Of a DNA stretch of 64,000 nt, positions 6,801 through 54,800 are shown one piece after another. The translations under genes were made by a program, and so were the position numbers. Position 1 is the stretch's first letter, and every line of letters begins with the position of its first letter. Origin of the DNA: Anadara kagoshimensis (lineage: Eukaryota; Mollusca; Bivalvia; Arcoida; Arcidae); contig CM037857.1 of assembly GCA_021292105.1 (NCBI GenBank), forward strand, positions 37,021,932 to 37,085,931. Direction: 5' to 3'. A model generated the notes under the pieces. It was given only the letters and a program-made list of their open reading frames with translations, was not told where the DNA came from and did no database searches.

Positions 6801-9800
6801 GTGTAGAGGATTTGAAAGATGTAAGGATAAAAAAAACATTCTTTTAGAGAAATGTATTAAATTCTCAGTCAAAGTATCAGTAATAATTTATAATTTTTTT
6901 AGAGAAATGTATTTAATTCTCTGTCAAATAATGATTTCTTGTTTTCGTAATATAAAAAAATCCTAAAACTATTAGATCTTAGGCTGAAATTATGCAAAGA
7001 ATTTGCTTTTAATGATAGATTCTAAAACTGTTTTGGTACATGGTAAATATAGTAAGTCCTGTCTAAATTAAAAATTTCTAGGATTGAAGATTTTGTTTTG
7101 TAGACAGGTATTTAGTTTACACAGGCATGTTAATGTACAAATCAGTATTAATGGTTGTCTAAATAGAATACAGTAAAAAAACAAATAATAACTTGAAGTA
7201 TTGTCAGAGTTATCAGGGTACTTAATCATGAGTAATCAGATTGGAACAGGTGGCAAAAAGAATAATCAAAATAAATTGATAAATGATATTCAAGAAAACA
7301 GTGTTTTGAGTTATTAAAATATCTATAATCTACCATGACCAAGTGGTACTGTCACTGGCTTTCAAAGTCAAGGGTTGTTAGTTTGAACCAAATTTTTCTG
7401 AGATGATTTTCCAGGGATTTATCGAGGCCTTATTTAGGGCCGAAATTCGGCCCCTTTCCCAATGGAAAAACATTAATTTTTTCCCAAAATTGGCTGAGAA
7501 AATTCCCAATTAGAAAATTGTGTTGTTTTTAAATGAAAACTAAAGTTAACTAATCACTGATTAACACTTGACGTCAGAATAAGATTATTCTGATTCAACA
7601 AGTGATCACGAGAATTATGAATTCCCAATGGCTGAAAGTAACGATTTCCGTTCTGGGGATGCAGAGGCCAGTGATTTAATCATTAATGGCTTAAAAAATG
7701 ATGTCAAAGTTTTCCAAAAATGAGCAAAAAGTTGATAGTTTTTCCCAATTTTTAGTTAAGGGCCTTTTCCCAAATTACCCTGATAAATCCCAGTTTTCAT
7801 CTCCTGCCCATACTAGAGGTGTAAAAAGCTCAGTACTAGAATAGTCTTTTGGATGAGACTTGAAACTGAGGCCCCATGTCTCATTGCATGTTAAACACCT
7901 CTGTAGAATTCGAAAAAGAGTAGGCCACCTGTGGAAGCTACAGAGGACGTTAACTATTAGAGGCGATTGAAACAGACTGAACAACATAAACCAATTGTTT
8001 ATTCTAAACAGAATTTCTAATTATAGAACTAAGAGCAAGGTGTTTAGACAGATTGCACTTTATTTTGTATTTTTGATATTTTTTTAGGAAATTCTACAAT
8101 TGAATGAAGATGATGAGAGAAAGGAAAACTTTTTACACCAAATGAATACAGCAGTCACAAAAATGTCATTTATACCCAATAAACCAGTCAGTAAAAACTT
8201 ATATAAAGTTGGGTATGTATACTTTTTATCATAAAAAAAGGGTGTGTCAATAAAACAGGGTGGGTGTAGTGGTGGGGGCTAAATAGCTAAATGTCTGTGA
8301 GTACTGGATAATGGATCACAGGGACTCCTTGATTGTGTTTAAATACCGCCACTGTAGCCCCTACAGTGATAATAAAAATCTGTGTATCTACAGTAATCAT
8401 TCTTTGTTAATATTTACTATGACAAAGTTTGAGACATTACCATTCATAATTTGATAGATTATAATTTTACAAGTTTTTAACAAGTAATTTATATTTGTTA
8501 ATTCTCTTTTAGAAATGCCAAAGTTTTACATCATGGTATTATTCATATTTAAACCAGTCTCAGAAATTGCATTCCATCGAAGTTCTTAGCTCAATTGTCT
8601 ATATTCATCTGAGCTGATTGTATGGCAAAGCATGCATGAATCTGTGTATGGGTCTGTCTGTAAACTTTAATGTTCCTCTCTTAAACTGCCAAACCAAATT
8701 GACCTAAACTTGGTGAGGAATGTTAATTAAAATTGTGTACTACTGTAGCCATCTAAAAGACAAGATGACCACCATTACTATTAAAAAACCTGATAAATAA
8801 CCATTAAAGCTTTATTTTTGGACCAATTAAATTCAATTTTGATATATATAAAAAAGATGCATGGACATTTACCATATTTTTAACCAATTTCGTAACAAAC
8901 TATTCATTAACCCAATTTTACCAGTCTGAAATTGAGGTATTATTTTATTCCAATCTTTTAAAGTTCCCTTCTCTGAAAGTGAAACCACTAGATAGAATAG
9001 AACCAAATTTTTAAGAGCAATCTATAGTTAATTACAAATTGAAAATTATGTTTGTCAGTTTTCAGATCTCTATATTTCTATATTGTAACAATTTTATACT
9101 AAATAATCAACAGGTATCAGTTATTAATAGAAGCTGTTGATAACATTGTGGGACAGTCAGCATTAATACGTAATATAATGGGATTACCCGAGAAAGACAT
9201 GGACGATCTGCCAGATGATTTCAGTAAGTAGTGATTACTTATTTATTTCAGTATGCCTTAGCACATAAATAGCAAGGGTTCACCTTACCATTCACCAATC
9301 CATGCCTTCTACTTTGAATTCACATGCAAAAATATTTTGTTTTTTTTCCATCAAATTTAAAAAAAAAATTGTGATTTTGAAATATTTTGATAAAATACAG
9401 ATTGAGTTTGAAATTTGTTAGTTTGACACAACATTCGGTTATCAGCAATGCAATTCATTCAACAGCTAAAATTCAGTGCACTAGAAATGTATATAAATAA
9501 TAAAAACCCCACTGCTTTGTGATACTAATAGCTTGCATGTATACACACACATAGCAATATTATCTATGTACAACATGCAATATTATGAAGAAATGCAGTT
9601 TTTCAGATTTTTACAACAACACGCTTCCCTGTGGCACTAGTATTTGTCACCAGTACAACAACACGCTTCCCTGTGGCACTAGTATTTGTCACCAGTACAA
9701 CAACACGCTTTCCTGTGGCACTAGTATATGTCACCAGTACAACAACACGCTTTCCTGTGGCACTAGTATTTGTCACCAGTACAAGAACACGCTTCCTTGT

Positions 9801-12800
9801 GGCACTAGTATTTGTCACCTGTACAAGAACACGCTTCCTTGTGGCACTAGTATTTGTCACCTGTACAACAACACGCTTCTTTGTGGCACTAGTATTTGTC
9901 ACCAGTACAACAACACGCTTCCTTGTGGCACTAGTATTTGTCACCTGTACAACAACACGCTTCCTTGTGGCACTAGTATTTGTCACCTGTACAAGAACAC
10001 GCTTCCTTGTGGCACTAGTTTTGTCACCTGTACAAGAACACGCTTCCTTGTGGCACTAGTATTTGTCACCAGTACAAGAACACACTTCCTTGTGGAACTA
10101 GTATTTGTCACCAGTACAAGAACACGCTTCCTTGTGGCACTAATATTTGTCACCAGTACAAGAACACGCTTCCTTGTGGCACTTGTATTTGTCACCAGTA
10201 CAAGAACATGCTTCCTTGTGGCACTAGTATTTGTCACCAGTACAAGAACACGCTTCCTTGTGGCACTAGTATTTGTCACCAGTACAAGAACACGCTTCCT
10301 TGTGGCACTAGTATTTGTCACCAGTACGCACTAGTATTTGTCACCAGTACAAGAACACGCTTTTTTGTGGCACTAGTATTTGTCACCAGTACAAGAACAC
10401 GCTTCCTTGTGGCACTAGTATTTGTCACCAGTACAAGAACATGCTTCTTTGTGGCACTAGTATTTGTCACCAGTACAAGAACACGCTTTCCTTGTGGCAC
10501 TAGTATTTGTCACCAGTACACAGTTTTAGCACTTGGTATATATGTATATTATAATGATTTTGTCCAATCAAAGGAAATAAATACAAACACTTGAATTAAA
10601 TGTGGAAAGAAGTTCATTTCAATTTTTTTGCAGTCCTTACATATCTGGTGGAAGTTCACATGTTTAACTTAAATTGCCAGTTTCAGAGCTTTTACTTTGC
10701 TTTAGGATTGCGATTTGGACATAGATTAGTATGTTTGTTTTTGATTTTCATTATATACTCCCAGTTTTATTGTAATGAAATGGTAAATAATAGAACAATA
10801 AAATACATTTAATGGATCTCAACGCCAGGAGAAACTTTGATGATATCATTTTATTAATGGGTCTTCATGTTTTGGTAGCTATGCTACTACCTCATAATGA
10901 TATTCACCTGAAGAAACAATAACAGTTTTTATACCTTAGGGATGTTGATTTCATTGAACTATTCTGTAGTCAAACTGGTAAAATGTGATAAAGAAGATTA
11001 ACTAGGACACAATACATTTCGCAATAATCCTGATTTAATCAACTGATTACAGAGTTCTGTTGACATCCTCTAGTCTAAGGAGTATGGATTTGTGTCTACA
11101 CAGGGGTAATCCTGATACACCGTATTTCATTTACGTCGGAGTATTCCGTCGGTTTTAATTTACGTCCGAGTAAAATGATACATTTTTGGTAGTTACGCTT
11201 TACGTTAAAGAGCAACGAACACAGTTTTTCATATAACTTCACAAAAACGAAACTTTAACAGAAAGCAAAAGGTTATTCGCATTATATTTGATAGCATTCA
11301 ACTGCCTCGTATAAAATCTTGCAAGAAATAGTAATATTTTTCACGTACCTGTAACATTTTCATTTTTGGGCGGTCCTTTTGTTTAGCAGCTGATTTTAAT
11401 AAAACGGGTTTGGATTCAAATGATGTTTCTACTCAAAATTCTCAAGAAATGTCTATACTTTCATATACTTGCGAAGACAGAAGCTTTACTCTGCTTTTAA
11501 GCGAAATTTAATGTTTTGTTTAAGCGGAGTAGCATAAATGTGTTATGCTTTCCGTGAAGACATGTTACGCTTTCCGTTTAATGTGATTCGCAATTGACTG
11601 AGCACGCTCTTCATTATAACTTCGGATTGAACGTCTTTCTTGATTAAATCTTCACTGGTTGTTTCAGAAGTGATTCAGAAAGCATTGCAGAACAGACTTC
11701 AAATTTTGAAAGAGAACAGAACCATACACAGTTCGTAACTTGAACCAATAAAGAACAAAACAACATACAATGTACATGCTTTTATACAATGCACTTTTCC
11801 CTTTGTAAACCGACTTATAGATAGTTATACCAATTCCACAAATAAACTTAGTCAAACCCTCTGATAAAGGCCACTCAAGGGAACAAGTAAAAGTGGCTTT
11901 ATGGGCAGGTGACCCTTATATAAGTTTCAAATGACATGAATAAAGAGCAATTGAGATATAATTTTACTGGCCTTTAAAAGCAAGTGACCCTTATATAAAG
12001 GTAGTTTTTAAAATAGTGTCATGTGTCGTCCGTAAACTTTACATTTAAATCATCTCTTCCAAAACTTCTTGGGCATATTTGATGAAACTTTGTGATTATC
12101 ATGCCTGGGTAACAGGCATTTAGAATTGTGTTCAGGATTTGGCCACGCCTAACAAGATGACTGCCATTACTACATAAATCTTTTTCTCTGAAATCAAAAC
12201 GTGCAAGCAAATTTCGATTGGATATTTGGATTCAAGGAACATAAAAATTGGAAAAACATAGGTAACGCGTGTTTTGTGTAAAGTTCGTAATTTGTAAAAC
12301 TCAACAAGGGCTGCACTGTATGGAGGATTCACTGTTGATCTTGTCTTGCTATTTTCTTCGAATGATGTCAAAGATCAAGGCCATGTCCCTGTTTATGACC
12401 TTTGATTGAAATTGTTAATTTTTGTAAACAGTTCAGGTGATAATGCATGGGATTTTCAGTTTATTGTAGGTATTTACATGACGACCATTTTTATACATAA
12501 ATCAAGGTCATGGGTTCTAAAGTAAAATTCACAAATGCACAAGTAAACCAAAATGGTTAATTATCTGCACTGACTATCAACTTTTTGTACAGGCATATAT
12601 GTTAGAATATTGTAGGTATTTACATGGTGATCATATAGATCAAGTTCATGGGTTCAGAGTAAAGGTTACAGATATAGAAAGAATAAAGAGGGTTAGGGTC
12701 AAGGTTACAGATATAGAAAGAATACTGAAATGGATACAATTGTAATAACTTAAATATATAAACAGATAATGACAATCATTTTCTACATTTTATCCTACTC

Positions 12801-15800
12801 AACCTTTAAGCTCACACGTGTTATTGTGTTGGGACAGTCATTGATCCATTGTATATACTCAGGTGAGCGTTAAGGCCCATCTATCTATTATTTAATTTTA
12901 ACTTTTTGATCTAAGAATATATTTGAGTTTGGTAATGGTGTTTTACGCCCCAGTCAAGATTCTTCCACGGATATCGAGGCGGTCAATTCATAGACTGTGA
13001 ATGAAAATAAGTGTACCTAGAGAAGCCGCCGACTTTCGGCAAGCGAACTGACAAACTCCCTGACACTGTCCTAGGTGGGACTCGCGCAAAGGCGATGGGA
13101 GGCAATATGATCCTAAGCCCACCCTTTAGACCACTCGGCCACTTGTAAAACACCATTTCACTTCGCTGGGGCGTAAAACACAATTACCCAACTCAACTAC
13201 ATTCCTAGATGAAAAAAGTAAAAATTAAAAAAAAACCAACATAACAGAACTACATTGATCCTTTTCAAAATGGTATTTCTTACGTATACGAAAGGAGGTC
13301 AAAATGTTCATAAAACGGGGTATTCATTGCCGCAACAAACCATACATTTTTATTATTTTATTATTATATTTCAATATAGTCCCCATTTAACCCAATTCAC
13401 TTAGCCCACTTTTCTTTCGGGTTGGTCCTGAAACCATGCCTCCTCTGTGGCAGCCTTGAGTCTATCATCATCAGGAAATCTGATTCCCCGTAAATGGGAT
13501 TTCAATTTTTTAAATAGGAAATTATCACTGGGTGCCAAATCGGGACCGTAGGGTGGGTGATTAAGTCGTTCGAACTTGCATTCAAGAATCGCTGCTTGTG
13601 CAATCCTTGACTTGTGCACAGGAGCATTGTCGTGAAGAAGCAATACCCCTCGGACTCAACTTTCTCTTACTTTTTAATTAAATAGCAGCTGAACAGCTGC
13701 TTCATTAGATCAGCATAGTAAGCCCCAGTGATAGAGATTCCAGCAGGTTTATAATTGATTAACAGAACACCCTTAGAATCCCAAAACACAGTGGCCATGA
13801 CTTTGCCAGCTGATGGTTGGGTTTTGGATTTCTTTGGTTGGGGTGAGCCAGGGTGCTTCCATTGCATGGACTCCTTTTTGGTTTCTGGGTCCCAATGATG
13901 AATCCATGTTTCATCACCAGTTACTAAACGTAAATGGAAGCTCTCCAGGTTATCATTATAATGCCAAGAAGCTCCCGACTTGACTGGAGTCTTTGAAAGC
14001 GATCCTGCACATTAAGGTTTCTGGGGACCCATCTTGCGGATACTTTTGACATCCCAAGATGCTCGTGGATAACCGTGTATACACTTCCATGTGAAACGTC
14101 ACACTCCCTAGCTATGTCATCAATCCTAATTCGACAATCATTCATGATGAGGGTCTCCACAGACGTGACAATTTCCTTTGTGATGGCATCAGCTTGCCGA
14201 CCTGACCATGGGTCATCCTTCAGTGAGGTGCGCCCACGTTTCAATTCAGCTGACCATTTTGCCACTGTGGAATAGGCAGGACCACTGCCACTGTACACCT
14301 CGGCCATTCGCCGGTGAATTTCTTTGGCATTTGATCCCTCTACTACCCTAAACTCAACATTTTGATTTTCCATTATTGCTTGATGGTCACCAACTTTGAA
14401 TGCTTTTGAAAAATTACACAAATATGTTGTGACAAATTAACTTGATATGTTTAAAATGACGGAATGTTGTGTTGTCTAAATAAGTAAAGAAAATGTATGT
14501 TACGCTTGGCTGAATACGCTGTTCTAAATACGCTGTTCTATGAACTTTCTGACTTTCCCTCGTAGTTTTATTTTTTTCTGTAATTGGTATAACTATCTAT
14601 AAGTCGGTTCACACTTTCGCAAGTGTTTCCTTTTGGTAGAAGTGTATTGCTATATAAACATGTACATTGTATGTTGTTTTGTTCTTTATTGGTTCAAGTT
14701 ACGAACTGTGTATAGTCCTGTTCTCTTTCAAAAATTGAATCCTGTTCTGCAATGCTTTCTGAATTACTTCTGAAACAACCAGTGAAGATTTAATCGAGAA
14801 AGACGTTCGATCTAAAGTTATAATGAAGAGTGTGATCTGTTAATTGCGAATCATATTAAACGGAAAGCGTAACATGTCTTCACGGAAAGCATAACACAGC
14901 TGGTCGGAAAGCGTAACATTTATGCCACTCCACTTAAACGAAACATTAAATATCGCTTAAAAGCAGAGTAAAGCTTCTGTCTTCGCAAGTATATGAAAGT
15001 ATAGACATTTCTTGAGAATTTTGAGTAGAAACATCATTTGAATCCAAACCCGTTTTATTAAAATCAGCTGCTTACCAAAGGGACCGACCAAAAATGGAAA
15101 TGTTACAGGTACGTGAAAAATATGGCCATTTCTTGCAAGATTTTATACGAGACAGTTAAATGCCATCAAATATAATGCGAATAACCTTTTGCTTTCTGTT
15201 AAAATTTCGTTTTGGTGAAGTTATATGAAAAACTGTGTTCTTTGCTCTTTAACGTAAAGCGTAACGACCAAAAATGTATCATTTTACTCGGACGTAAATT
15301 AAAACCGACGGAATACTCCGACGTAAATGAAATACGGTGTATCAGGATTACCCCCGTGGTCTATAGAGGTGCACACTAGAGAGTAGTTGGTATTTCCTCT
15401 CCAAGACACAAGCCAGGGATTTCAAAATAAAAATGTACAAAAGCAAGGAAAATTTGTTTGTCTAAATCAGACAATGATTCTGAGCCATTTAGTGAAGCCT
15501 AATCAATCAAAATTGCATATGAAGAAAATTTCTTTATTTAAAAAAAAAATACACATGTACATTACATTAATGTTTGTGTCGAGTACAATAATTACACAAA
15601 ATTCAGCTCAGCAAAGGACAACATTGAGCCATAGTTTATATGACATAAATTTTATCTGTATGGATACTAAGTGTAAAGCTATGAAAATGCTTGATTTTTT
15701 GGAAGATAAAAAATATGGTAACATTGGGATTTTTATAACTTTTGACACAGTTTTGTGATCTGGGATTCCAAAAAAAAATGTAACCACTCCTACTTCATTA

Positions 15801-27992: not shown

Positions 27993-28940
27993 TAATGTCA
28001 TATAACATCACCATGGAACCATTTAAAGATTATGTAAACTTGCCTTAGCTAAATACAAACCATGTGTACATGTGGAAGCCTTCATTGTTGTATACTTATT
28101 TCAGACATTTAGGTATGTCATTTGTATTAGCCAGTAACCGTTGCCTTTTAAATGGGAAAATTTGAATACAGCAAACTGCATAATGACATGCAGGAACAGC
28201 TTTGGATCCTCATTGCAAAGATGTTATATTGTGACAACATCTAACAATTTGTGGGTAAGGACAATTAGATTTAATTTGCTAGTATATCGCTTATTTGCAA
28301 ATTATATTTGTCAAATTGGGAAATTTTGGTCATTTTCCCCAGGGAAACTACCTTTATTTGGTAGTAATTCTAGGGAAACAAAATCACTGTTAACACTCAC
28401 AGTTCTTGAAACATAACATAAATTCTAGATTTTAAAATATTTGATTAATGTAGATTAATCATGTTAATACGTTTTCAGACAACAAAATTTGTGATTCATC
28501 TGTGCATATAACAATAAAATGTTACCCGCTAATGTTATCCTAGTGCATGGGAATCACTCATTCTTAATTTAACACTGACATTGTCACCTATCATCTGATC
28601 AAATTACAGGAAAATTAACATTTGGTGTGATAAACTCAAATGACGGATCGCCGGCCATGCCCACAATCTTCTGACAAAGGTCTGGCATGCTTGATTTACA
28701 TGCAAAAAGAATGAAAGCTTGACCTGAATTGTGTTTTTTTATGACGTCACTGACACTAGTACATCATAAGTTTCCGTGACGCTGCTTTCGTACTGTGATG
28801 GCGGTCAGTGTTGGAACATAATAGGTATGGACGGCGATACGTCAATTACTACATCAAAGTTTGTTTAGATTGTTTAATCTCTGATGCAAAGTAAAACAAT
28901 ATGCAACCCAGATGTGTGTCTATGGTTTAAAACAAAACCT

Positions 28941-31249
28941 TAGTTGATGTAAAATATGCAGTGAACCAAACATGTCACATTTCACCTCTATGTTGTGAGC
29001 CAAACATGTGACATTTCATCTTCTAGTTGATGTTAAGTGAGCCTAACATGTCACATTTCATCTTCTAGTTGATGTTAAGTGAGCCAAACATGTCACATTT
29101 AATCTTCTAGTTGATGTTAAGTGAGCCAAACATGTCACATTTCACCTCTATGTTGTGAGCCAAACATGTGACATTTCATCTTCTAGTTGATGTTAAGTGA
29201 GCCTAACATGTCACATTTTGTCTTCTAGTTGATGTTAAGTGAGCCAACACGTCACATTTCATCTTCTAGTTGATGTTAAGTGAGCCAAACACGTCACATT
29301 TCATCTACTAGTTGATGTAGAATATCTAGTGAAACAGACATGTCACATTTCATCTTCTAGTTGATGTTAAGTGAGCCAAACATGCCACATTTCATCTTGT
29401 AGTTGATGTAGAATATCTAGTGAAACAGACATGTTACATTTCATCTTCTAGTTGATGTAGAATATCTAGTGAACCAAACATGTCACATTTCATCTTCTAG
29501 TTGATGTAGAATATCTAGTGAACCAAACATGTCACATTTCATCTTCTAGTTGATGTAGAATATCTAGTGAAACAGACATGTTACATTTCATCTTCTAGTT
29601 GATGTAGAATATCTAGTGAAACAGACATGTTACATTTCATCTTCTAGTTGATGTTAAGTGAGCCAAAAATGTCACATTTCATCTTCTAGTTGATGTAGAA
29701 TATCTAGTGAACCAAACATGTCACATTTCATCTTCTAGTTGATGTTAAGTGAGCCAAACATGTCACATTTCATCTTCTAGTTGATGTAGAATATCTAGTG
29801 AACCAAACATGTCACATTTCATCTTCTAGTTGATGTTAAGTGAGCCAAACATGTCACATTTCATCTTCTAGTTGATGTAGAATATCTAGTGAACCAAACA
29901 TGTCACATTTCATCTTCTAGTTGATGTAGAATATCTAGTGAACCAAACATGTCACATTTCATCTTCTAGTTGATGTAGAATATCTAGTGAACCAAACATG
30001 TCACATTTCGTCTTCTAGTTGATGTAGAATATCTAGTGAACCAAACATGTCACATTTCGTCTTCTAGTTGATGTAGAATATCTAGTGAACCAAACATGTC
30101 ACATTTCGTCTTCTAGTTGATGTAGAATATCTAGTGAACCAAACATGTCACATTTCGTCTTCTAGTTGATGTAGAATATCTAGTGAACCAAACATGTCAC
30201 ATTTCATCTTCTAGTTGATGTTAAGTGAGCCAAACATGTCACATTTCATCTTCTAGTTGATGTAGAATATCTAGTGAACCAAACATGTCACATTTCATCT
30301 TCTAGTTGATGTAGAATATCTAGTGAACCAAACATGTCACATTTCGTCTTCTAGTTGATGTAGAATATCTAGTGAACCAAACATGTCACATTTCGTCTTC
30401 TAGTTGATGTAGAATATCTAGTGAACCAAACATGTCACATTTCGTCTTCTAGTTGATGTAGAATATCTAGTGAACCAAACATGTCACATTTCGTCTTCTA
30501 GTTGATGTAGAATATCTAGTGAACCAAACATGTCACATTTCGTCTTCTAGTTGATGTAGAATATCTAGTGAACCAAACATGTCACATTTCGTCTTCTAGT
30601 TGATGTAGAATATCTAGTGAACCAAACACGTCACATTTCATCTTCTAGTTGATGTAGAATATCTAGTGAACCAAACATGTCACATTTCATCTTCTAGTTG
30701 ATGTAGAATATCTAGTGAACCAAACATGTCACATTTCATCTTCTAGTTGATGTAGAATATCTAGTGAACCAAACATGTCACATTTCATCTTCTAGTTGAT
30801 GTAGAATATCTAGTGAACCAAACATGTCACATTTCATCTTCTAGTTGATGTAGAATATCTAGTGAACCAAACATGTCACATTTCATCTTCTAGTTGATGT
30901 AGAATATCTAGTGAACCAAACACGTCACATTTCATCTTCTAGTTGATGTAGAATATCTAGTGAACCAAACATGTCACATTTCATCTTCTAGTTGATGTAG
31001 AATATCTAGTGAACCAAACATGTCACATTTCATCTTCTAGTTGATGTAGAATATCTAGTGAACCAAACATGTCACATTTCATCTTCTAGTTGATGTAGAA
31101 TATCTAGTGAACCAAACATGTCACATTTCATCTTCTAGTTGATGTAGAATATCTAGTGAACCAAACATGTCACATTTCATCTTCTAGTTGATGTAGAATA
31201 TCTAGTGAACCAAACATGTCACATTTCATCTTCTAGTTGATGTAGAATA
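28941..31249. repeat. 2.3-kb minisatellite of mixed 42- and 49-bp units overlapping the RDM1 stop codon
   Basis: About 48 units share CATGTCACATTTCATCTTCT and AGTTGATG. Long units (49 bp) add TAGAATATCTAGTGAACC; short units (42 bp) have TTAAGTGAGCC instead. Short units are common at the left end and pure 49-bp units dominate from ~30.2 kb to the right end, where variant sub-blocks (TTTCG versus TTTCA) are homogenised. The rightmost unit contains the last codons and stop of RDM1 (minus strand). Confidence 0.97.
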
Positions 31250-31335
31250 TGTAAGTTAACAGCATCTATATCCTCTTCATCATTATTATCTATGTTTATG
31301 TCATCATCTGGTGGTGTTTCATCTAACTCATTTAT
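31219..31335 (-). CDS. RDM1: RDM1 exon 6, terminal, ends in the minisatellite
   Basis: Acceptor TTTTTAG, phase 0. It encodes INELDETPPDDDINIDNNDE and DIDAVNL, then ILHQLEDEM and TGA. The final nine residues and the stop are read from the first repeat unit. Confidence 0.75.
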   Translation of the reverse strand: MNELDETPPDDDINIDNNDEEDIDAVNLHILHQLEDEM

Positions 31336-34327
31336 CTAAAAAGTAAACAAAAACAAAAATAAATAACTTAAGAGATCTGTGTTTTAAACCCTAATTATCT
31401 ACAGTAAAATATGTTCACAAAGTCCTTGGGTCTCTATTTTTAACTTTTTTATATTGTTATAGAGTTATATAGACTTATATAGAGGAGTGGTCTGGCCAAA
31501 TATTTGACTTCCTACTATCCATGTATTTTTCGTAAGCCTGTTCATTATATTGGTGTTTTACTGTATAATTATAGCAAAATGAGTAAACTTGATCAAGCAG
31601 TATGTTGGTGTTACAGTCAATGTAGATATACAATATGTATAAGACGAAACCTTGACTGGGGGAGGGGGGAGGAAGAGCTCTGTGGCTTAGTGGTCTAAAG
31701 CCTACACTCATGGATACATAGTGTCTCTCAGCATTTAAGTTCAAATTTGTCATTTTACTTGCCACAGGTAAATGGTTTTCTATGAGCACTCTGGTTTCCT
31801 CCACCAATCATAGAATGAAAGTTTCCATATATCGGTAAGTGAAAGAATCTTGAATGGGGCGTAAAACTCCATTACTTTACTCCGCTTAAACCCTGACCAT
31901 AAATGACAAAAAAAAACTAAGTTTTAATGCATTTCAAACATTTCAAAATGAGTTTTTACAAGCAGACTACACATACAAATTTATCTCATTGGCCCATATT
32001 TTAGCACATACATGGAAGAGAAACAAAGTATCCAGTACCCGTTCAAAAAGGTGATCCCAAATCGTCCCTTTAACAACTTAGTAATCAAACAGTAACAGAT
32101 TGGTGTCCCCATACAGTCAAACCTGTCTATAAAGGCCATAGCAAGAAACCAGGAAAAGTTGTCTTTATGAGCAGGCAGTTTTTATATACAGGTTCAAACA
32201 ACATGAATAGAGAGCAATTGGGATTAAATTTACTGGATTTTAAAAGACGGTGACCCTTATATGGAGGTGGGCATTTAGTGGGTTTGACTGTAAAGTGCTA
32301 ATCACTATGCCAAATGACTGAAGATAAATTAATAAAGAATTATTTAAATTTTGTATTTTAAGCTCACCTTAAGAACTGGCGTGTCATCAAGTTTGTTTTC
32401 TGAGAGTTGAATCTCTGGTTTCACGGTATTTATTTCCACCATCACTTTACCATTAGACAAAACAATCACCAACACCCGGGAAAACGCATTTTCAATAGCT
32501 CTCTGATATGCTAGTTTTTTACACTTACACAAGGCCTTTGATCGGCTCTGTGGATCTGTAGAACAGAAACAATTATATAAATAAAAAAATAATGTAATAG
32601 TTGTCAGTAAAAAGCAGTCGGATGGAAGAACAGTATAGTCTGCCTGTATGTCTACCCCATACAGAGCATCAGTCTGATACTACACTACATGTATACAATT
32701 ATTGACTTTTGATGAGGTAGGCATAAGGATTTATCAACCTCAAAAATATTATATTCAGAGGCCGTAGGTTGACGTGAATACATGTATTATGTTTTTGAGG
32801 TTGATAGATCCTACTGTCTGCCCAATTGAAAGACAATACAGTGAAAACTGTGAAATACGGACCTTGAAAAAAAAAAAAAGGATATTGTGAAAACCGGACA
32901 AAATGTTCTGTCCCAAATTTGACCTTCTATTTTCTAAGCATTGTGAACCTCTATAAACTGGAACCTGTCTACTCTGGAAACCAGACTAGCTTTCTGGTAC
33001 AAAATAAACATATACAACACAACAAGAGGCCCATGGGCCTTAACGCTTACCTGAGGGTATATACATATCTCATGCAGAGGTCCAATGGTCAATGATATTG
33101 ATTAAAGAGAATGTCCAAATTTTCAGCAGTTAAATATCTGTTTTCAAGGATTTTTGCAAATTAATTATAACTTGTCCTGAGAATGCTACATAAAAATGTC
33201 TAAAGTCTAGCTGCAGTATATCATTTATAAACAGCTAAAACAGTAAAAACAAAAGTACAAACATAAAAAACTAGACCATTTCAGTTAGACTTTTGAATCC
33301 ATGACCTTCATTCAAATATCAAAATGGCATCATTGTGCCAATACTTACAATATTCTAATATACATGCCTATACAAAAAGTTTATAATTTTTTAGATAATT
33401 AACCATTTTAGTATTCATTTGCATCTGTGACATTAGCCTTTGAACCTATGACCTTTATTCATATATCAAAATGATCAAGATTTGATGTATGGTACGTGCC
33501 TTCCTTATACAGAGATATATTTAAGTTTTAATCATTGGAATGATAAAATTTAATGAAATGGTTATTTGGAGTAAAAATCTTTGGAGTCGCGAAACAGTTT
33601 GCCTTCAAGTACACAAATATCACAACTTAAAAAAATTTAATGCTTCTTCCAATTAAATATATAGAATTTATATATACATATTTTCCAAAAGATTGTTAAT
33701 TTAAGTGTATTTTAGAGTATTAAATAGGGTAATAAAACTTTCTTATTTGATAGTATTATTTAAATTGTTTCTGTTTATCTAAAATCAGATGAGGAGGGGT
33801 TTGATGTTTAATTGTTAAAATATGTTTTTTATTGCATTTCTGTTTTTTTGTACACTATTAAAAGCGGACTCTGAATCTCTGACAAGGTAACTCTGTATTT
33901 ATCTATCAAAAGCCTGGTTACTCAGGCCTCTCACCACCTAGGTTCAAATCCTACTCAGAACAGACCCCTATCATATGAGAAAGTTAGTCAGGTCCATTGC
34001 AGAAGGTTGTGGTTTTGCCTGGGCACTCTAATTTCCTCCACCATTTCTGAACTAACCACCATGGTATCAATAAACAGATCTTGACTGAAGCCTTCAACTT
34101 TATTTAAAAAAAAAACAAAAAGAAAACAAAACAAAAAACAAAAGAAAGCAATAGTAGGCCACCTACCTTTTAAAGCATACATCTCTTCCCATGCACCTAT
34201 TCCTTCAGCATAGAGATTTTGTCGTGTAATGTCCAGTTTTGTCACACAGACATATCTGACTTTCTGTAACTGACCAACTGGTTCTTCTGTATCCTTCTTT
34301 AACTAGAATTATAACAACAGTTAATAA

Positions 34328-34380
<53 letters not shown>

Positions 34381-37217
34381 TAATAATAATAACAATAATA
34401 ATAATAATATAATAATAATAATAATAAATTAATAAAAAAAAGAGTTGGAAGTATGAAAACTAAGGAATTTGCAAATGTACCATGTATGTCCTATTAACAT
34501 TTGTATGGATCTATCCTTTTTAATGGTTGGGTAAAAATAAATTATGCCACATGTTCCCTAGATAATGTCAATACTATGAGAGAATATATCGAAATATGGG
34601 ATCAAACAATATCAAACGACTACAAGAGATATATGGGTATTGAATCACTCAAGGTCATCCAACTTTACAAACTTAAAAGGGATGGGGAACGTCCCTGTAA
34701 AACTTAATTTCCACTGATGATCATCACGCCAGGGTTTTACTGACATGTTCTGTAGGTTGTTTTGTATTTATTACAGATAAAATACATGTGTAAATACTGT
34801 AGATTACCCCGATTTCACGAGTTTCACATTTCACGCACCAACCCCTAAGTGTCATTTTGCGAATATGTGAATTCATAAGCACAATCCATGTAAATATTAA
34901 AATCCGCAATCATTAGGCAATTATCTCCCTTTCTTAGGATGTTTTGTCATGTTATATATAGCTTCCACCGTCATAAACCATTGCCGGCATGTTTTGCAAT
35001 TCAGGTTTTTTATTTTCGCCATTCTTGGAATATTTGTGAAATTATGCAATAATAAACCCCTTGTGATAAACAAGAGGCCCATGGGCCTTAACGCTCACCT
35101 GAGGAAGAGTACATATCTTATGCAGAGGTTCAATGGTCAATGACATTAATAAAAGAGAATATCAAAATTTTCAGCAGTAAGGGCCAATAATATGCAAGTA
35201 TTTTTGCAAATTAATTATAATAATTATTATATAAGTATGCTATATATAACATATTTAAAGTCTAGCTACAATATATTATTAGCCTTTGGCTCAGGTGAGC
35301 TAAAAATAATCTACAGTACATTGTTAAAATTACTGGTATACATCAATATACAACACAACCTGAAGCAATCAAAAACCTGTGTAACCTGAATACCTGTTTA
35401 ATCTGAACACAATCCTCAGCCATGAAGGCAGTGGTCAATCTAGAAAGGACCCTTGCACAATTGGCTCCCAAATAATAGTTACCGTACAGCGGGTTATTTT
35501 GGCAGCGCTTAATTTTGGCGTTTTTGGTAAGAAAAAGTCAGTGGCATATTTTGGCGTCTTTATTTTGACAATAAGACAAAATGCTAAGTTTTTATTTTGG
35601 CGATTAGAAAACATGCTATGGCTTAATTTTGGCAATTATATTTATTATTCTAAAATATATACAGTCATATATTATAAAACAAATTTGAAGAAGATAAAAA
35701 GCTTACCACAATATTGTAGGTTACTAATTGTAAAAGTAGTTAATATGTCATTATACACGCAATCATCTTGCAGTCAGTATTATAAATGACCGTGTTACTG
35801 TTCATGGTGCAATACTATCTGCTAACTGAAAACAACTCACTAGCTCACTCACGGTTGACAGGTCAGTACATATAATTATGGCATACAATTGCTGCCATTA
35901 ATTTTTGCAAACATAAATTTTAACTGCCATAATTTTTCACGATTTATATTTTGGCGATTTTCAATGTCACCACCAAAATATGCCAAAATTTCACCCCGCC
36001 AAAATAACACGCTGTACGGTATGTCCCACAAAATACTGTCTGTGGGTCAACTATGGCTCATATTTTTTAGTCTTAGCTGAGTAGTTCTACCTTTATTTCT
36101 TTGTTACTTTTTTAAACTTAATACTGAACTTTTCAGATAAAATGGATAAAGTTATGTTATAATTTATACCCAATTTATGAAAATATAGCCATGGATTTTT
36201 TTAAAGCTTGGACCAGGATGACCAAGCCAAATACTTTAAACGTATTTATCTTCGCAACGTAATAATTTTCACTTATTTCATGGTCATTTGTTTAGCGCAA
36301 AAATTAATAGAGAGTGAAAACTATATTTTGGATTTTGGTTATTGTGTTATAGTGCATCTTCAAAAAACGCAAAAATTAAACTATGCGGATATGTCTAAAT
36401 TTCATCTACCTCAAAAATAAATACACACAAAATTCAATACGTTTACAGCATATTTCTGGATTGAGTCTTGTGGAAGCTTACTACTTAGACAGGTTCCACT
36501 GTATAAAATAAATCAAAGTTATATTGCCTACTTACCAGTTTTACAGACAGAGACCATCCATTGAATCCCAGATAATAATTGGCTAAATCTTGACATTTTA
36601 TGAAGTGTAATGGAGGAGGAGGTTCCACCATTTCTTTCTTCCTTTTTGCAAAAGACACCTAAAACAAAGAAGTGAAAACATTCTGTAAACTGTAACAATA
36701 CTTGATTCAGTATAAGGCCATGTCAGTTGTTTTCTTCGTTAAGCATTCACTGGCGAAAAGGTGGTCTTGGGGTTTCAAATGTAAAAACAATCAGATTTTT
36801 TATCCAATTTATTCTGTAAAAAGTTTTTATCGCATTTATTATGTTTTTGTTTATTTTTGGGGAAAGCATAAATCATTTTAAGATTTAATTTGTTTTTTGT
36901 TCTTTTTTAAATTACAGTTTGTATTTTACCCTGTTTTATACTTTGTTACCTTTGCAGTGTGCTCAGGGCTATGTGTAGGGAGGATTCTTTAACAAGAGCC
37001 ATTGGTTTTTAGGTCCACTTCGAACTTTCGAAGGACCCTGTAATTTTCATCACAGTCACTTTGACTCGCTACCCATTGAAATGATTTTCAAGTCTTGGGC
37101 AGACCACAGCAGGGGTTAAGCAAGGGTTAGAACCCATAATCTCTTACACGTGAAACACACATTCTTACAACTGAGCTATTCAAGTCGTTCCCACATAAAC
37201 AATGTCACATATACACA

Positions 37218-37259
<42 letters not shown>

Positions 37260-38704
37260 AAAGAGAGAGAGAGAGGGAATATCATTCTATTTCATGATCA
37301 CATCAGACCCCCCTTTGAATCTGCCTTCATCAGATAAGAGTTTGGACCACAGTCATATTTATTCATGTAACTGTACCTTACACATAGACCCTTTAATAAA
37401 AATTGTATTTCCTGTAGAATCTTTTGCAGTTTTGGCATTCATTGCCAGATAGTATGTTACAAAGGCATAATATCCACTGGGTATTTCAGCTTGATCTTCA
37501 GCTGTTGTTTTATCATCAGCATTAACAGGTCTCTTCTTCTTGTTTACCAGTGGGTATATCTGTACTCCATATAAAAGTCCATATTTGGAAAATTTATCAT
37601 GTAGGATTTCCTAAAATTTGAATCAAAAGAACGAAAGTACTCGTGAGATAAAAAAACAACAACACATTTTTCTAGATCTGGACACAAAATTACACATTTG
37701 ATATCTTGTTGCATGTACCTACTTGATCCAAAAAGTCGTAAATACCAATATACTTATTATACTGTGTCAAGTTTGACGGTGACCTAGCCTTTTGACCTTT
37801 AATAAATAATAGATTGCCATTGGGTTAATAAACTGTGTGATTAACACTGTATGTTTTATAAACACATGATACCCAGTATTACTATGTTGTATCCTTATTT
37901 ATCAACTTTATATTGCCCCTAAATCACACAATGGATATTATGTCTTTTTCAATATTCAAATAACAATGTATAGGTCAAATGACCAGGTCAAACTTGACGC
38001 ACTGTACTAATATATTTTATTGCTGGAATAAGTAAACATGTTGATCTACTCTGATGCCATATCTAATTTCCAACAAACAATCGGTATATCAATGGACACA
38101 AACTGTAAACATTGCTTGCTAATTTGCTTCTTTATTTGTATGAAGCACAAATTTATGCAGAACCTTATTAAATATGGAGAAGACTGTTGTCAAATCATTA
38201 ACTTGAAACACAGATATATAGAGGACATTCTATTTCAGAATTCTTAATAATTTTTGAATGCCCTCCATCCTAATTAGATTGAAAATACGATACGACTGAA
38301 TATTCAAATTCTGCTTCATATTTAGACTTATATCTCAATTATTACAAAGGCTACACTTGAAGCTGTAAGACAAACGTGACAACTTCAATTTTTCTATTGT
38401 CAACTTTTCTTTTCTATTCAGCAATATACCAAATTCTCCTGTTTATTGTGTATTTCACACGCGGTGGGCGAAGCAAGAGGTGTTTAACCTTCCGGAGCAC
38501 CCGACCTCATTTTCCCGGTAGAACTTCACGTTGTCAGTTTTCAAAGTTGTTACGTGTACTCTCTTTTTGAACACGGATCGGTTTGTGTTAGATTCATACC
38601 GTTAACTCGTCTTCCGGAATGACTGGTATACCACTAATAAATATGTTTTTCCTGTTCCCCTCAGGTCGCACAAACTCCAATATTTCTATCCCATTTCTTG
38701 CCAT
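31219..38704 (-). CDS. RDM1: RAD52 motif-containing protein 1, complete, 6 exons, 300 aa
   Basis: Exons in coding order: 38704-38600, 37610-37377, 36658-36536, 34302-34167, 32555-32368 and 31335-31219. They sum to 903 nt (300 codons plus TGA); human RDM1 is 284 aa. All introns are GT/AG with matching phases. Residues ~15-113 form an RRM-like domain (FSKYGLLYGVQIYP, GYYAFVTYYLAMNAK). Residues ~130-155 (KCQDLANYYLGFNGWS) and ~210-240 (KLAYQRAIENAF, VLVIVLSNGKVMVE) are the two blocks I recall as the RAD52-like motif of RDM1. In vertebrates RDM1 binds nucleic acid and acts in the response to cisplatin-type damage. The start is the first ATG after an upstream region with no competing frame. The C-terminus is acidic. 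Confidence 0.88.
31672..31893 (+). mobile_element. SINE family S2 (tRNA-like) in an RDM1 intron
   Basis: It starts GAGCTCTGTGGCTTAGTGGT (A-box-like), has AAGTTCAAATTTG, and ends TTGAATGGGGCGTAAAACTC. Relatives lie near 4186-4345, 6290-6490, 12915-13197, 33905-34105 and 52340-52510. Confidence 0.55.
32114..32290. mobile_element. CAGTCAAACC-family palindromic MITE in an RDM1 intron
   Basis: CAGTCAAACCTGTCTATAAA at the left, GGGTTTGACTG at the right, and TA flanks on both sides. Confidence 0.85.
32368..32555 (-). CDS. RDM1: RDM1 exon 5
   Basis: 188 nt, phase 1 in and phase 0 out, acceptor TTCTACAG, donor gtgagc. KKLAYQRAIENAFSRVLVIV and LSNGKVMVEI match the RAD52-like second block. Confidence 0.88.
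33021..33495 (+). mobile_element. HINE/Pearl-like element, fragment (copy B)
   Basis: Starts AACAAGAGGCCCATGGGCCT; one decayed core near 33420-33465 (ATTAGCCTTTGAACC); no 3' end recognised. Confidence 0.75.
34167..34302 (-). CDS. RDM1: RDM1 exon 4
   Basis: 136 nt, phase 0 in and phase 1 out, donor gtaggt. It encodes KVRYVCVTKLDITRQNLYA and EGIGAWEEMYALKG. Confidence 0.85.
34329..34427. repeat. (AAT)n microsatellite in an RDM1 intron
   Basis: About 100 bp of ATA/AAT triplets with a few CAA interruptions, 27 bp from the acceptor of RDM1 exon 4. Confidence 0.97.
35069..35303 (+). mobile_element. HINE/Pearl-like element, core-less copy (copy C, 235 bp)
   Basis: It has both ends, AACAAGAGGCCCATGGGCCT and TTTGGCTCAGGTGAGCTAA, but no ~145-bp core. 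Lies in an RDM1 intron. Confidence 0.85.
35482..36019. mobile_element. CCGTACAGC MITE, 538 bp, TA target site
   Basis: Left tip CCGTACAGCGGGTTATTTTG, right tip AAAATAACACGCTGTACGG, each flanked by TA. Subterminal AATTTTGGC-type motifs recur on both sides. Predicted short proteins here come from these repeats. In an RDM1 intron. Confidence 0.88.
36234..36448. mobile_element. CTGTAAACG-type MITE, copy 2
   Basis: Left CTTTAAACGTATTTATCTTC, right TTCAATACGTTTACAG; the interior GTTTAGCGCAAAAATTAATA matches 58660-58869. Confidence 0.75.
36536..36658 (-). CDS. RDM1: RDM1 exon 3
   Basis: 41 codons, phase 0/0, acceptor TTTTAG, donor gtaagt. It contains HFIKCQDLANYYLGFNGWS, close to what I recall of the vertebrate KCQELANYYFGFNG block. 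Confidence 0.9.
36947..37185 (-). mobile_element. SINE family S1, diverged copy in an RDM1 intron
   Basis: It contains GGAGGATTCTTTAACAAGAG, TTTTCAAGTCTTGGGCAGAC and the tRNA-like ACAACTGAGCT at its right end. Confidence 0.65.
37218..37275. repeat. (TG)n followed by (AG)n microsatellite
   Basis: About 42 bp of TG repeats and then ~14 bp of AG repeats, ~100 bp downstream of RDM1 exon 2 in gene direction. Confidence 0.95.
37377..37610 (-). CDS. RDM1: RDM1 exon 2 (RRM core)
   Basis: 78 codons, phase 0/0, acceptor ATTTTAG, donor gtacag. It encodes FSKYGLLYGVQIYP, a Lys-rich loop, GYYAFVTYY and AKDSTGNTIFIKGSMCK. Confidence 0.85.
38600..38704 (-). CDS. RDM1: RDM1 exon 1 (start codon)
   Basis: ATG at 38704-38702; 35 codons ending IPVIPEDELT; donor gtatga, phase 0. 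The first RRM strand is NIFISGIP. Confidence 0.8.
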
Positions 38705-39045: not shown

Positions 39046-40150
39046 TTCAACTACGGAAGCGTATTAGGGCCACATTTTTAATTTACTTTTTTTATTTTTC
39101 ACACTTTAATCTGTAAAATTTACACTTTAATCTGTAAATTTTACACTTTAATATGTAAAATTTACACTTTAATGTGTAAAATTTACACTTTAATCTGTAA
39201 AATTTACACTTTAATGTGTAAAATTTACACTTTAATCTGTAAAATTTACACTTTAATCTGTAAAATTTATACTTTAATGTGTAAATTTTACACTTTAATC
39301 TGTAAATTTTACACTTTAATCTGTAAAATTTACACTTTAATCTGTAAATTTTACACTTTATTTTGACATCTTGTAGAAAGAAGCATGGATTCATTCCTAA
39401 GGAGAAGAGGCGTTCACGAAGACACCTTAAGAGTTCTCAACCTTTATATAAAGACCAACTATGGACCTTAGAAATAAAGTTAAACCTGTATATGAGGACC
39501 ATTGAACCTACAAAATATAGTAAAACCTTTATATAAAGACCAACTATGGGACCTTAGAAATAAAGTTAAACCTGTATATGAGGACCATTGAACCTACAAA
39601 ATATAGTAAAACCTTTATATAAAGACCAACTATGGGACCTTAGAAATAAAGTTAAACCTGTATATGAGGACCATGTATTTCTTCCAAACATTTTATTATT
39701 TCACTATATCTAAGTCCCCGTTTGAAATACTCCCCGATTAAATACTCCCGATCCATGACCTAATAATGGAATCTAAACTAAAAATTTTCAGATTAAAGTG
39801 TAAATTTTACAGATTAAAGTGTAAAATTTACAGATTAAAGTGTAAAATTTACACATTAAAGTGTAAATTTTACAGATTAAAGTGTAAAATTTACAGATTA
39901 AAGTGTAAAATTTACAGATAAAAGTGTAAGTTTTACAGAATAAAGTGTAAATTTTACAGATTAAAGTGTGAATTTTACAGATTAAAGTGTAAAATTTACA
40001 GATTAAAGTGTAAATTTTACAGATTAAAGTGTAAAATTTACAGATTAAAGTGTAAATTTTACACATTAAAGTGTAAATTTTACAGATTAAAGTGTAAAAA
40101 ATAAAAAAAGTAAATTAAAAATGTGGCCCTAATACGCTTCCGTATTCAAC
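39046..40150. mobile_element. 1,093-bp palindromic element with tandem-repeat arms and 6-bp target duplication
   Basis: TTCAAC at 39046-39051 and 40145-40150 flanks an element with tips TACGGAAGCGTATTAGGGCC and its reverse complement. Each arm (39052-39365 and ~39790-40144) is mostly 21-bp units with ACACTTTAATCTGTAAA. The loop has ~2.7 copies of an 85-bp unit (39440-39680). Small proteins predicted on either strand are the 21-bp repeat read through, not genes. Confidence 0.93.
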
Positions 40151-51804: not shown

Positions 51805-54800
51805 CTAAAATAATAATAATGAAAGTATAGGTACAAAATCATTGTTTTAGTCTTTTGATTGAATGGGATTTTATCTCCCAGTCAAGAATATTTCACTTAT
51901 ATCAAGACATCAGCAGCTACCAGTATAAGTGAATTTATTACCTTACATTGAGTTCAGAGTAATTTGCAGGGAGGGTATTTTAATATGTCATGCCTGCACT
52001 GACAAAGGGCATAAGTGTTACTCTTCTGGATGACACAGTGGCTTTCTAAATGCTGAGTGCTTGGCAAAAAAACAGTCACTACATATTTTCAAGGTTTGGT
52101 CAGACCTGGTCTAGGGTGCGAACCGGGTTACTGTGAACCTGACCTCCAACATACAAAGCGAGCACTCTACCAACTGAATGAAACATTATTGACGAGTCAT
52201 GATTATTTTACTTTCATTATGGTAGCAAGCTGAAATTGTGAAAGAACCTGGAGAAGCGAGGTGGAAAAACCATACACTTTTGTCAAACTAACATACAAAT
52301 TTTCTCAAATTAGGTAGGATCTGTTCTAAGAGAGATTTATAAGGAGTGGAGTGGAGTAATAATGTTTAACATCCAGTCAAGATTCTTTCACTTATATCAA
52401 GGCAGTAAGTTTTGGATGGTTGAGGAAACTGTAGTACCCAAAGAAAAAACAGACAAATTTCTCACACTATGAGTGAAATTGGAACCTCAGTAATATAAAA
52501 AGTTATTGATGAAGGTATAGACCCCAACTTGTAAACAAAAGGCCCATGGGCCTTAACGCTCACCTGAGGACGAGTACATATCTTATGCAGAGGTTCAATG
52601 GCCAATGACATTAATAAAAGAGAATATCAAAATTTTTAGCAGTAAGGGCCAATAATATGCAAGTATTTTTGCAAGTTAATTATAATGATTATTATATAAG
52701 TATGCTATATATAACATATTTAAAGTCTAGCTACAATATATTATTTATAAACAGCTAAAACATCTGTATATTAAAATGTGCATTAGGCCAATACCTACAA
52801 TATTCCAATATACATGCCTATACAAAGAGTTTATAGTTTTTGAAATAATTAACCATTTAAGTATTCGTTTGCATCTATGACCTTGACCTTTGAACCTATG
52901 ACCTTCATTCATATATCAAAATGATTGTTGTGCAAATGCCTACAATATTCTAATATACATGCCTATACAAACAGTTTAGTTTTTGAGATAATTAACCATT
53001 TAAGTATTCATTTGCATCTATGACCTTGACCTTTGAACCTATGACCTTCATTCATATATCAAAATGATCGATAGGCCAATACCTACAATATTCTAATATA
53101 CATGCCTATACAAAAAGTTTATAGTTTCTGAGATAATTAACCATTTAAGTATTAGATTGCATTTATGACCTTGACCTTTGAACCTATGAACTTTATTCAT
53201 ATATCAAAATGATCATTGTGCAAATGCCTACAATACTCCAATATACATGCCTGTACAAAAAGTTTATAGTTTTTGAGATAATTAACCATTTAGGTATTCG
53301 TTTGCGTCTTTGACCTTGACCTTTGAACCTATGACCTTCATTCATATATCAAAATGATTGTTAGGCCAATACCTACAATACTCCAATATACATGCCTATA
53401 CAAAATGTTTATATTTTTTTTAGATAAATAGAAGAAGATTTTTTTTGTCTTTTTGTTATTTTTAGTAACAGCGGCCATCTTGTTGGGCGTGGCCAAACCC
53501 GAACACAATTTTGAAAGGCTGTTACCTAGGCATGATAATCACCACGTTTCGTCAAATATGGCCCAGTAGTTTTGGAGGAGAAGATTAAAATGTAAAGTTT
53601 ACACACGACGCATGACGGACGACGGACGGTGATAGATTGCAATAGCTCATCTGAGCCTTTGGCTCAGGTGAGCTAATAATGTACCTGCTGCATCACCACC
53701 ACCAGCCACATGTTCTGTTCCATCACCACCGCCAGCCACATGCCCCACTCCATCACCACCGCCAGCCACATGTACTGTTCCTGATCTCTGTGCCACACCA
53801 TTATTTATCAAGTAATCAGCTATGTTTATATCATTGTCATAGTCTACTAGTCTTAAACTACACACTTCAGCTGATTGATCCATCAAGATAGCATGTAATC
53901 TCTTTTCAAAGAATAATTTCATCATTCTAGCGGCTTCAGGATTCCATGTGGAGCCAACTGGTTCAATATCTGTAAATAAAATGTATATATATAATAACGA
54001 GTATTATTTGTTGTTGTTGAATGTTGTTTAATGTTGCATCAGCAATTTTCCAGCTACTAGCGACAAGAACTACTTAATTAATTCCCATGGATTAAGCTAT
54101 GGACAAGTTTGTGTATGCTTTTGAAGTGCAATTGTGTTTTATGGTCTGCCTTGTACCAGTGTGCACTCAGGGCGACTTTAATGCCACAGACAAGCATACT
54201 ACTCCCCCAGTCACATTATACTGACACTAGGTGAACCAATAAAGACCAACAGCAAGGAATGTTCACTTCCCAACAAGTGGTCTGAGCCGGACTTGGAACT
54301 CACAGCTGTGAGAGACCCTGAATTTGTAGATTATCCACTGTGACCTCAAGTATTTATTATAATGGATTGATTAATTGAATGGGGTTTTACATCCAAGTGA
54401 ATATTTCATTTATATTGAGACATCACCAGCTATAGGTGAAGTGGCAGAGGTGAGAGAGAGAGAGAGAGAGAGAGGTTTTTTTTTTACTGTATGTACTTAC
54501 CAGCTAATCTACATCTAATTGCCATTATTGGGAGTTCTAAAAACTCTGGTGTAATAGGACGTAACTTATCAGCTGTGACAATCTCTTTGTTACCAAAGTC
54601 TATGTAATGTACTTGGTATGTACCATTCTGGTATGTTTGTGTTACAACTCCTCTGTACCAGCTATCATCCTCTGTTAAGTCAAATACAAACATTAAAACC
54701 TTCATTCATTACCACAATTTCAGGAATTAGGGTAAAAAGGACCCAAGGGCTGTGACCCATGACTCCTAAATATAAGTCTGGGCCCCTAAATTTTGCAACT

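Follow-up and report, generated by a model that had tools for sequence, protein, structure and literature searches.

How does a gene come to end inside a minisatellite, and did the array grow out of the gene itself? A sequence-only reading of the 64,000-nucleotide stretch of Anadara kagoshimensis DNA analyzed here (the window, whose coordinates are used throughout) had placed the stop codon of an RDM1 gene within a 2.3-kb array and proposed that the coding tail had seeded that array. Our analysis assigned a six-exon RDM1 gene to the minus strand at positions 38704-31219 (Table 1), with GT..AG at all five introns and a single open frame of 300 codons followed by a stop. The identity of the product was borne out by two Pfam matches above their curated cut-offs, DSRM_RDM1 (PF25517; E value of 2.3e-19, 70 bits versus a cut-off of 26.5) and Rad52_Rad22 (PF04098; E value of 3.4e-5, 24.2 bits versus a cut-off of 20.3). 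An N-terminal RRM domain is a feature of RDM1 (RAD52 motif-containing protein 1); no RRM model of Pfam matched the product at E values up to 1, a search that a distant RRM could escape, and no solved structure matched it at E values up to 1. When the protein was searched against the genome at E values up to 10, six of the seven matches fell on exons of RDM1 itself, and the remaining one had an E value of 8.8. RDM1 is hence single-copy within the reach of this search, in which no processed copy, of the kind that would show the mature mRNA, was found either. Among the literature matches listed, no title dealt with a mollusc RDM1 gene or with the present locus.

The minus-strand frame 31335-31219 encodes INELDETPPDDDINIDNNDEEDIDAVNLHILHQLEDEM, followed by TGA, and it does run into the first repeat unit. 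Identity with the array starts at 31250, and unit 1 supplies both the nine codons of ILHQLEDEM and the TGA, exactly as had been proposed. The exon is preceded by an in-phase AG acceptor with a T-rich tract. Vertebrate RDM1 also has an acidic C-terminal tail, of similar length. The edge of the array inside the exon is abrupt: similarity to the array does not clearly continue upstream of 31250, and the score of an anchored upstream extension was equaled by 296 of 5000 control positions and was thus not clearly above chance. The frame ends after 32 nt of unit 1, and translation across several units, as in a coding VNTR of the CEL type, was not found.

Table 1. Positions in the window of the RDM1 exons, the minisatellite and its parts, and the candidate poly(A) signal.
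Feature	Positions	Strand	Basis or remark
RDM1 exon 1	38600..38704	-	ATG at 38704; frame, splice sites, protein match
RDM1 exon 2, N-terminal region	37377..37610	-	AG acceptor and GT donor
RDM1 exon 3, DSRM_RDM1 domain begins	36536..36658	-	splice/frame model; PF25517 covers protein residues 132-228
RDM1 exon 4	34167..34302	-	splice/frame model
RDM1 exon 5	32368..32555	-	donor AAG/GTGAGC, top score among the gene's five real donors
RDM1 terminal exon, coding part, acidic tail	31219..31335	-	last 32 nt (31250-31219) in repeat unit 1
Minisatellite, 49 units and a 17-bp partial unit	28941..31250	-	TRF, anchor-word splitting, genome search; 49-bp minus-strand unit ATATTCTACATCAACTAGAAGATGAAATGTGACATGTTTGGTTCACTAG
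Gene-proximal block, units 1-20	30271..31250	-	3 different unit sequences, one of which fills units 1-6
Distal diverged block, units 34-49	28958..29661	-	13 distinct sequences in 16 units
17-bp partial unit ATATTTTACATCAACTA	28941..28957	-	one mismatch to the beginning of unit 1
Candidate poly(A) signal ATTAAA, just beyond the array	28873..28878	-	position only

From 31250 to 28941, the array spans 2310 bp, of which TRF called positions 29279-31250 with a period of 49 and 41 copies. Splitting the array at an anchor word yielded 48 further full units after unit 1, close to the roughly 47 further copies of the earlier reading. The two unit classes noted then were also recovered, with 49 bp in 35 and 42 bp in 9 of the 49 units and lengths of 46, 41, 39, 37 and 37 bp in the remaining five. 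Head-to-tail units of 37-49 bp over 2310 bp make the array a minisatellite, a class defined by head-to-tail units of about 10-100 bp extending over hundreds of bases or more. The full type starting with ATATT accounts for 30 of the 49 units, among which 5 of 49 columns are variable. Together, the beginning of unit 1 and the partial unit bracket the array as a 17-bp direct repeat with one mismatch.

The units are not uniform along the array. Besides the gene-proximal and distal blocks of Table 1, units 21-33 comprise five distinct sequences, and the edit distance from unit 1 grows away from the gene with a Spearman coefficient of 0.80, for which the nominal P of 6e-12 is too small because neighboring units are not independent. 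Adjacent units differ by a mean edit distance of 4.9 versus 7.0 after shuffling, and none of 2000 shuffles gave a value as low, in keeping with the local homogenization suggested earlier. The TTTCG and TTTCA blocks on which that suggestion drew are real as well: the GAC variant, which is synonymous in the coding frame, is present in 10 of the 49 units, which form two runs of consecutive units, 14-19 and 23-26. Collectively, these data revealed a polar, locally homogenized minisatellite. Since the units on the gene side are the most uniform, unit 1 lies within the most recently homogenized part of the array; it is identical to units 2-6 and does not resemble a preserved founder. The polarity may have come from gene conversion without growth.

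A genome-wide search with a 45-mer, allowing up to 3 mismatches, returned 34 matches, all of them in the array, and none with the reversed control; similarly, all 22 genome matches to a 301-base piece lay inside the array. At the search sensitivity used, the array therefore appears private to the RDM1 locus, and diverged copies elsewhere are possible because the 45-mer pattern overlooked 15 of the array's own 49 units. A transposon origin of the unit was rejected, as no copy was found outside the array by a search that diverged copies would escape. Relatives were sought among viral contigs, where six pattern matches were obtained and none was confirmed, and no inverted or direct repeats were reported in positions 28500-28960. 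A dispersed element of about 210 bp lies at positions 28637-28848 and stops about 93 bp short of the array. It has at least 39 further copies with 84-88% identity, a lower bound given that 40 of 5308 first-look candidates were scored; on visual inspection, its ends look like short inverted repeats, and it is perhaps a MITE. The 41 hits of the search for this element all lie on 17 contigs, numbered 19 or lower; together with lengths of 38-76 Mb for 12 contigs, this might, as a guess, fit about 19 chromosomes, a number found in many bivalves.

The probable explanation, in our view, is a locus-private minisatellite that arose by tandem duplication at the 3′ end of RDM1 and whose gene-side edge lies in the terminal coding exon. 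It is likely that the array grew from DNA at the end of the gene, and local seeding of this kind is supported by the failure of the searches, within their sensitivity, to find copies of the unit in other parts of the genome. According to this explanation, DNA at the 3′ end of RDM1 would have been tandemly duplicated, presumably growing by slippage or unequal exchange, so that unit 1 would supply the ILHQLEDEM codons and the stop, with the other 48 units downstream. Recent amplification or homogenization would have taken place mostly on the gene side, and unit 1 would share in the turnover of the array. As to whether the seed was itself coding, the unit may have had a coding role from the outset or, equally, may have been drawn into the frame later. 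These are two versions of the seed's origin, and both fit the explanation given above.

In the first version, the gene was already using a coding end that spanned the stop when the first duplication carried a copy of it outwards; we hold this to be nearly, though not quite, an evenly balanced proposition. It agrees with the failure of the 45-mer search (up to 3 mismatches) to find unit copies elsewhere. The segment ATATTYTACATCAACTA is present at both edges of the array, and once the edges are joined, the frame stays open and ends six residues past HILHQL, reading ...VNLHILHQLRFCFKP before the stop, so that the sequence on the exon side could have had a coding role that predates the array. Yet an open frame of a few codons is weak evidence, and unit 1 bears no sign of greater age than its neighbors. 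Of the earlier proposal that a coding tail seeded its own array, the local seeding is supported, whereas the coding status at the start of the array does not gain support from a unit 1 so unlike a founder.

In the second version, which we regard as tenable and somewhat improbable, the array first lay in the 3′ UTR or just downstream of it, and its expansion or the loss of an earlier stop put unit 1 in frame, so that the ILHQLEDEM tail would be a late, array-derived addition. The sameness of units 1 and 2-6 within the most uniform block speaks for this version, and the abrupt edge in the exon, with an extension score that so many control positions matched, is consistent with it. Against it, the length of the RDM1 tail is close to that of vertebrate RDM1, and overwriting without homology would need an extra illegitimate event.

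Both versions place the end of the gene in unit 1. On a hand-entered donor matrix, the GT sites of the terminal exon that lie ahead of the stop scored -5.7 and -7.4 and the one overlapping the stop -1.1; the scores of the gene's five real donors ranged from +0.9 to +7.6. Given these poor GT sites, the exon is best read as terminal, by a test that is weak because two of the real donors score as low as +0.9 and +1.8. That RDM1 truly ends elsewhere, with splicing that skips 31219 and leaves the array intronic or intergenic, is very unlikely, since the weak GT sites of some array units (at best +2.5, at 29145 and 28985) are set against an in-phase acceptor with a T-rich tract, an exon that is acidic, like the tail of vertebrate RDM1, and the absence of a good donor before the stop.

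A scan for 13 poly(A) hexamers from the stop to position 28640 found exact matches at 29103 (ATTAAA, unit 46), 28931 (TTTAAA), 28878 (ATTAAA) and 28743 (CATAAA). The array contains no AATAAA and a single ATTAAA (29103-29098, in the variant unit 46), and none of the other hexamers scanned occurs in it as an exact match. Because the last exon has no good donor and the array holds only one AATAAA or ATTAAA, the array most likely constitutes the 3′ UTR of the predicted RDM1 transcript. The 48 downstream units would probably be transcribed as a 3′ UTR of about 2.3 kb ending near the ATTAAA at 28878, and the UTR up to that signal would measure 2341 nt. The earlier expectation for a transcript using the TGA at 31219, a 3′ UTR that includes the array or a 3′ end inside it, is supported. 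Four units showed no unusual RNA folding (z of -0.52), and scans of the window against Rfam at the gathering threshold and for tRNAs gave no matches.

A change in array length has different consequences for the UTR and for the protein. When each unit was placed directly behind the exon, 34 of the 49 gave the same protein end. The 15 that alter it comprise unit 22 and, in the range 30-49, 14 of 20 units; eleven of the 15 begin with the short-type TCACTTAAC, and units 39, 41, 45 and 49 are variants. The gain or loss of whole common units is protein-neutral because the coding sequence extends no further than 32 nt into a single unit, and a change in their copy number would alter the length of the UTR and leave the protein unchanged. 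The idea that length alleles could alter RDM1 mRNA thus holds for the UTR and, with the common unit types, not for the protein.

The sequence-only reading had called the arrangement unusual, which overstates the case. We drew random positions on contigs 1-19 up to 43 Mb (19 of 57 planned 10-kb stretches, on 12 contigs; 1000 of the 190,000 bases are N) and found 13 arrays that were 500 bp or longer and had a period of 10 or more, or about one per 15 kb. They cover 15.8% of the bases, a figure dominated by two long arrays of 8,962 and 6,583 bp, both cut by the end of their stretch; in the window, five arrays of this kind cover 8.6%. A rough hand estimate from 13 arrays in 190 kb puts array edges at about 1.4e-4 per base, which corresponds to about 0.7% for a 50-bp stretch, and yields some 170 gene ends touched by chance, an order of magnitude that assumes 25,000 genes and random placement and ignores selection. 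With arrays this dense, overlaps with gene ends are expected by chance and a single case is unremarkable. The overlap of RDM1 with the minisatellite is tidy and fairly ordinary for an array-rich genome.

Two 21-bp minisatellites at 39101-39360 and 39782-40098, whose consensus units are exact reverse complements, flank an array with an 86-bp period (39439-39674) and form with it a large inverted repeat some 400 bp upstream of where RDM1 starts. A TAA microsatellite of about 39 copies (34322-34435) ends about 20 bp before exon 4. The 42-bp minisatellite at 9612-10520 keeps several frames open on both strands; its period equals 14 codons, and the long reading frames are therefore probably spurious. 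On the minus strand, 53650-54003 holds an in-frame 30-bp repeat encoding HVAGGGDG-like units of 10 residues; this frame itself matched nothing in Pfam, and a Tudor-domain frame lies near it at 59183-60616. A frame of the MYCBPAP family (PF14646, E value of 4.4e-22) occupies 3847-4179 of the plus strand. At 13670-14436, a mariner-like transposase is apparently split over two minus-strand frames, one matching Transposase_1 with an E value of 3.6e-20 and the other giving only helix-turn-helix matches below the cut-off.

Most likely, the array is a by-product of mutation rather than an evolved device, and no observation suggests a biological role for it. If the stop is used, coding and non-coding copies share one array, and conversion would be traceable at the very end of a protein. 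We put forward as a speculation, unlikely as it stands, a concerted evolution of a non-coding array with the C terminus and stop of a DNA-repair protein: copies would pass repeatedly, in both directions, between unit 1 and the other 48, the protein end would be both buffered and rewritten by conversion from the 3′ UTR, and the length of the UTR would vary between individuals without a change in the protein. For annotators, the locus illustrates that gene ends sometimes fall in repeats, where 3′ ends built from short fragments are unreliable.

Several known systems resemble this locus in part. SLC6A3 (DAT1) carries a VNTR of 40-bp repeats in its 3′ UTR, and the likeness to RDM1 lies in a last-exon minisatellite in the 3′ UTR, which for RDM1 is a predicted one; unlike in SLC6A3, the first unit of the RDM1 array also contains the last codons and the stop. 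The 49-bp unit of RDM1 is not a multiple of three, and the copy number of common units is protein-neutral, in contrast to CEL. The variable last-exon minisatellite of human CEL, with 33-bp units, shapes the C-terminal part of the protein (PMC8692231), as the last-exon minisatellite contributes a C-terminal part in RDM1. Each CEL unit corresponds to 11 residues and unique C-terminal sequence follows, whereas 32 nt of one unit are translated in RDM1. Polar mutation has been described at the human minisatellites MS32, MS205 and MS31A, and the D1S80 study in which this is recounted itself places changes near the center of its array (PMC3356730). The human polarity refers to observed mutants, while that of the RDM1 array was read from unit divergence in one assembly. 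Finally, the edges of the RDM1 array resemble the birth of minisatellites from short direct repeats in the model of Haber and Louis, where flanking repeats of 5-10 bp initiate the duplication (PMC6947457); here the repeat is 17 bp long.
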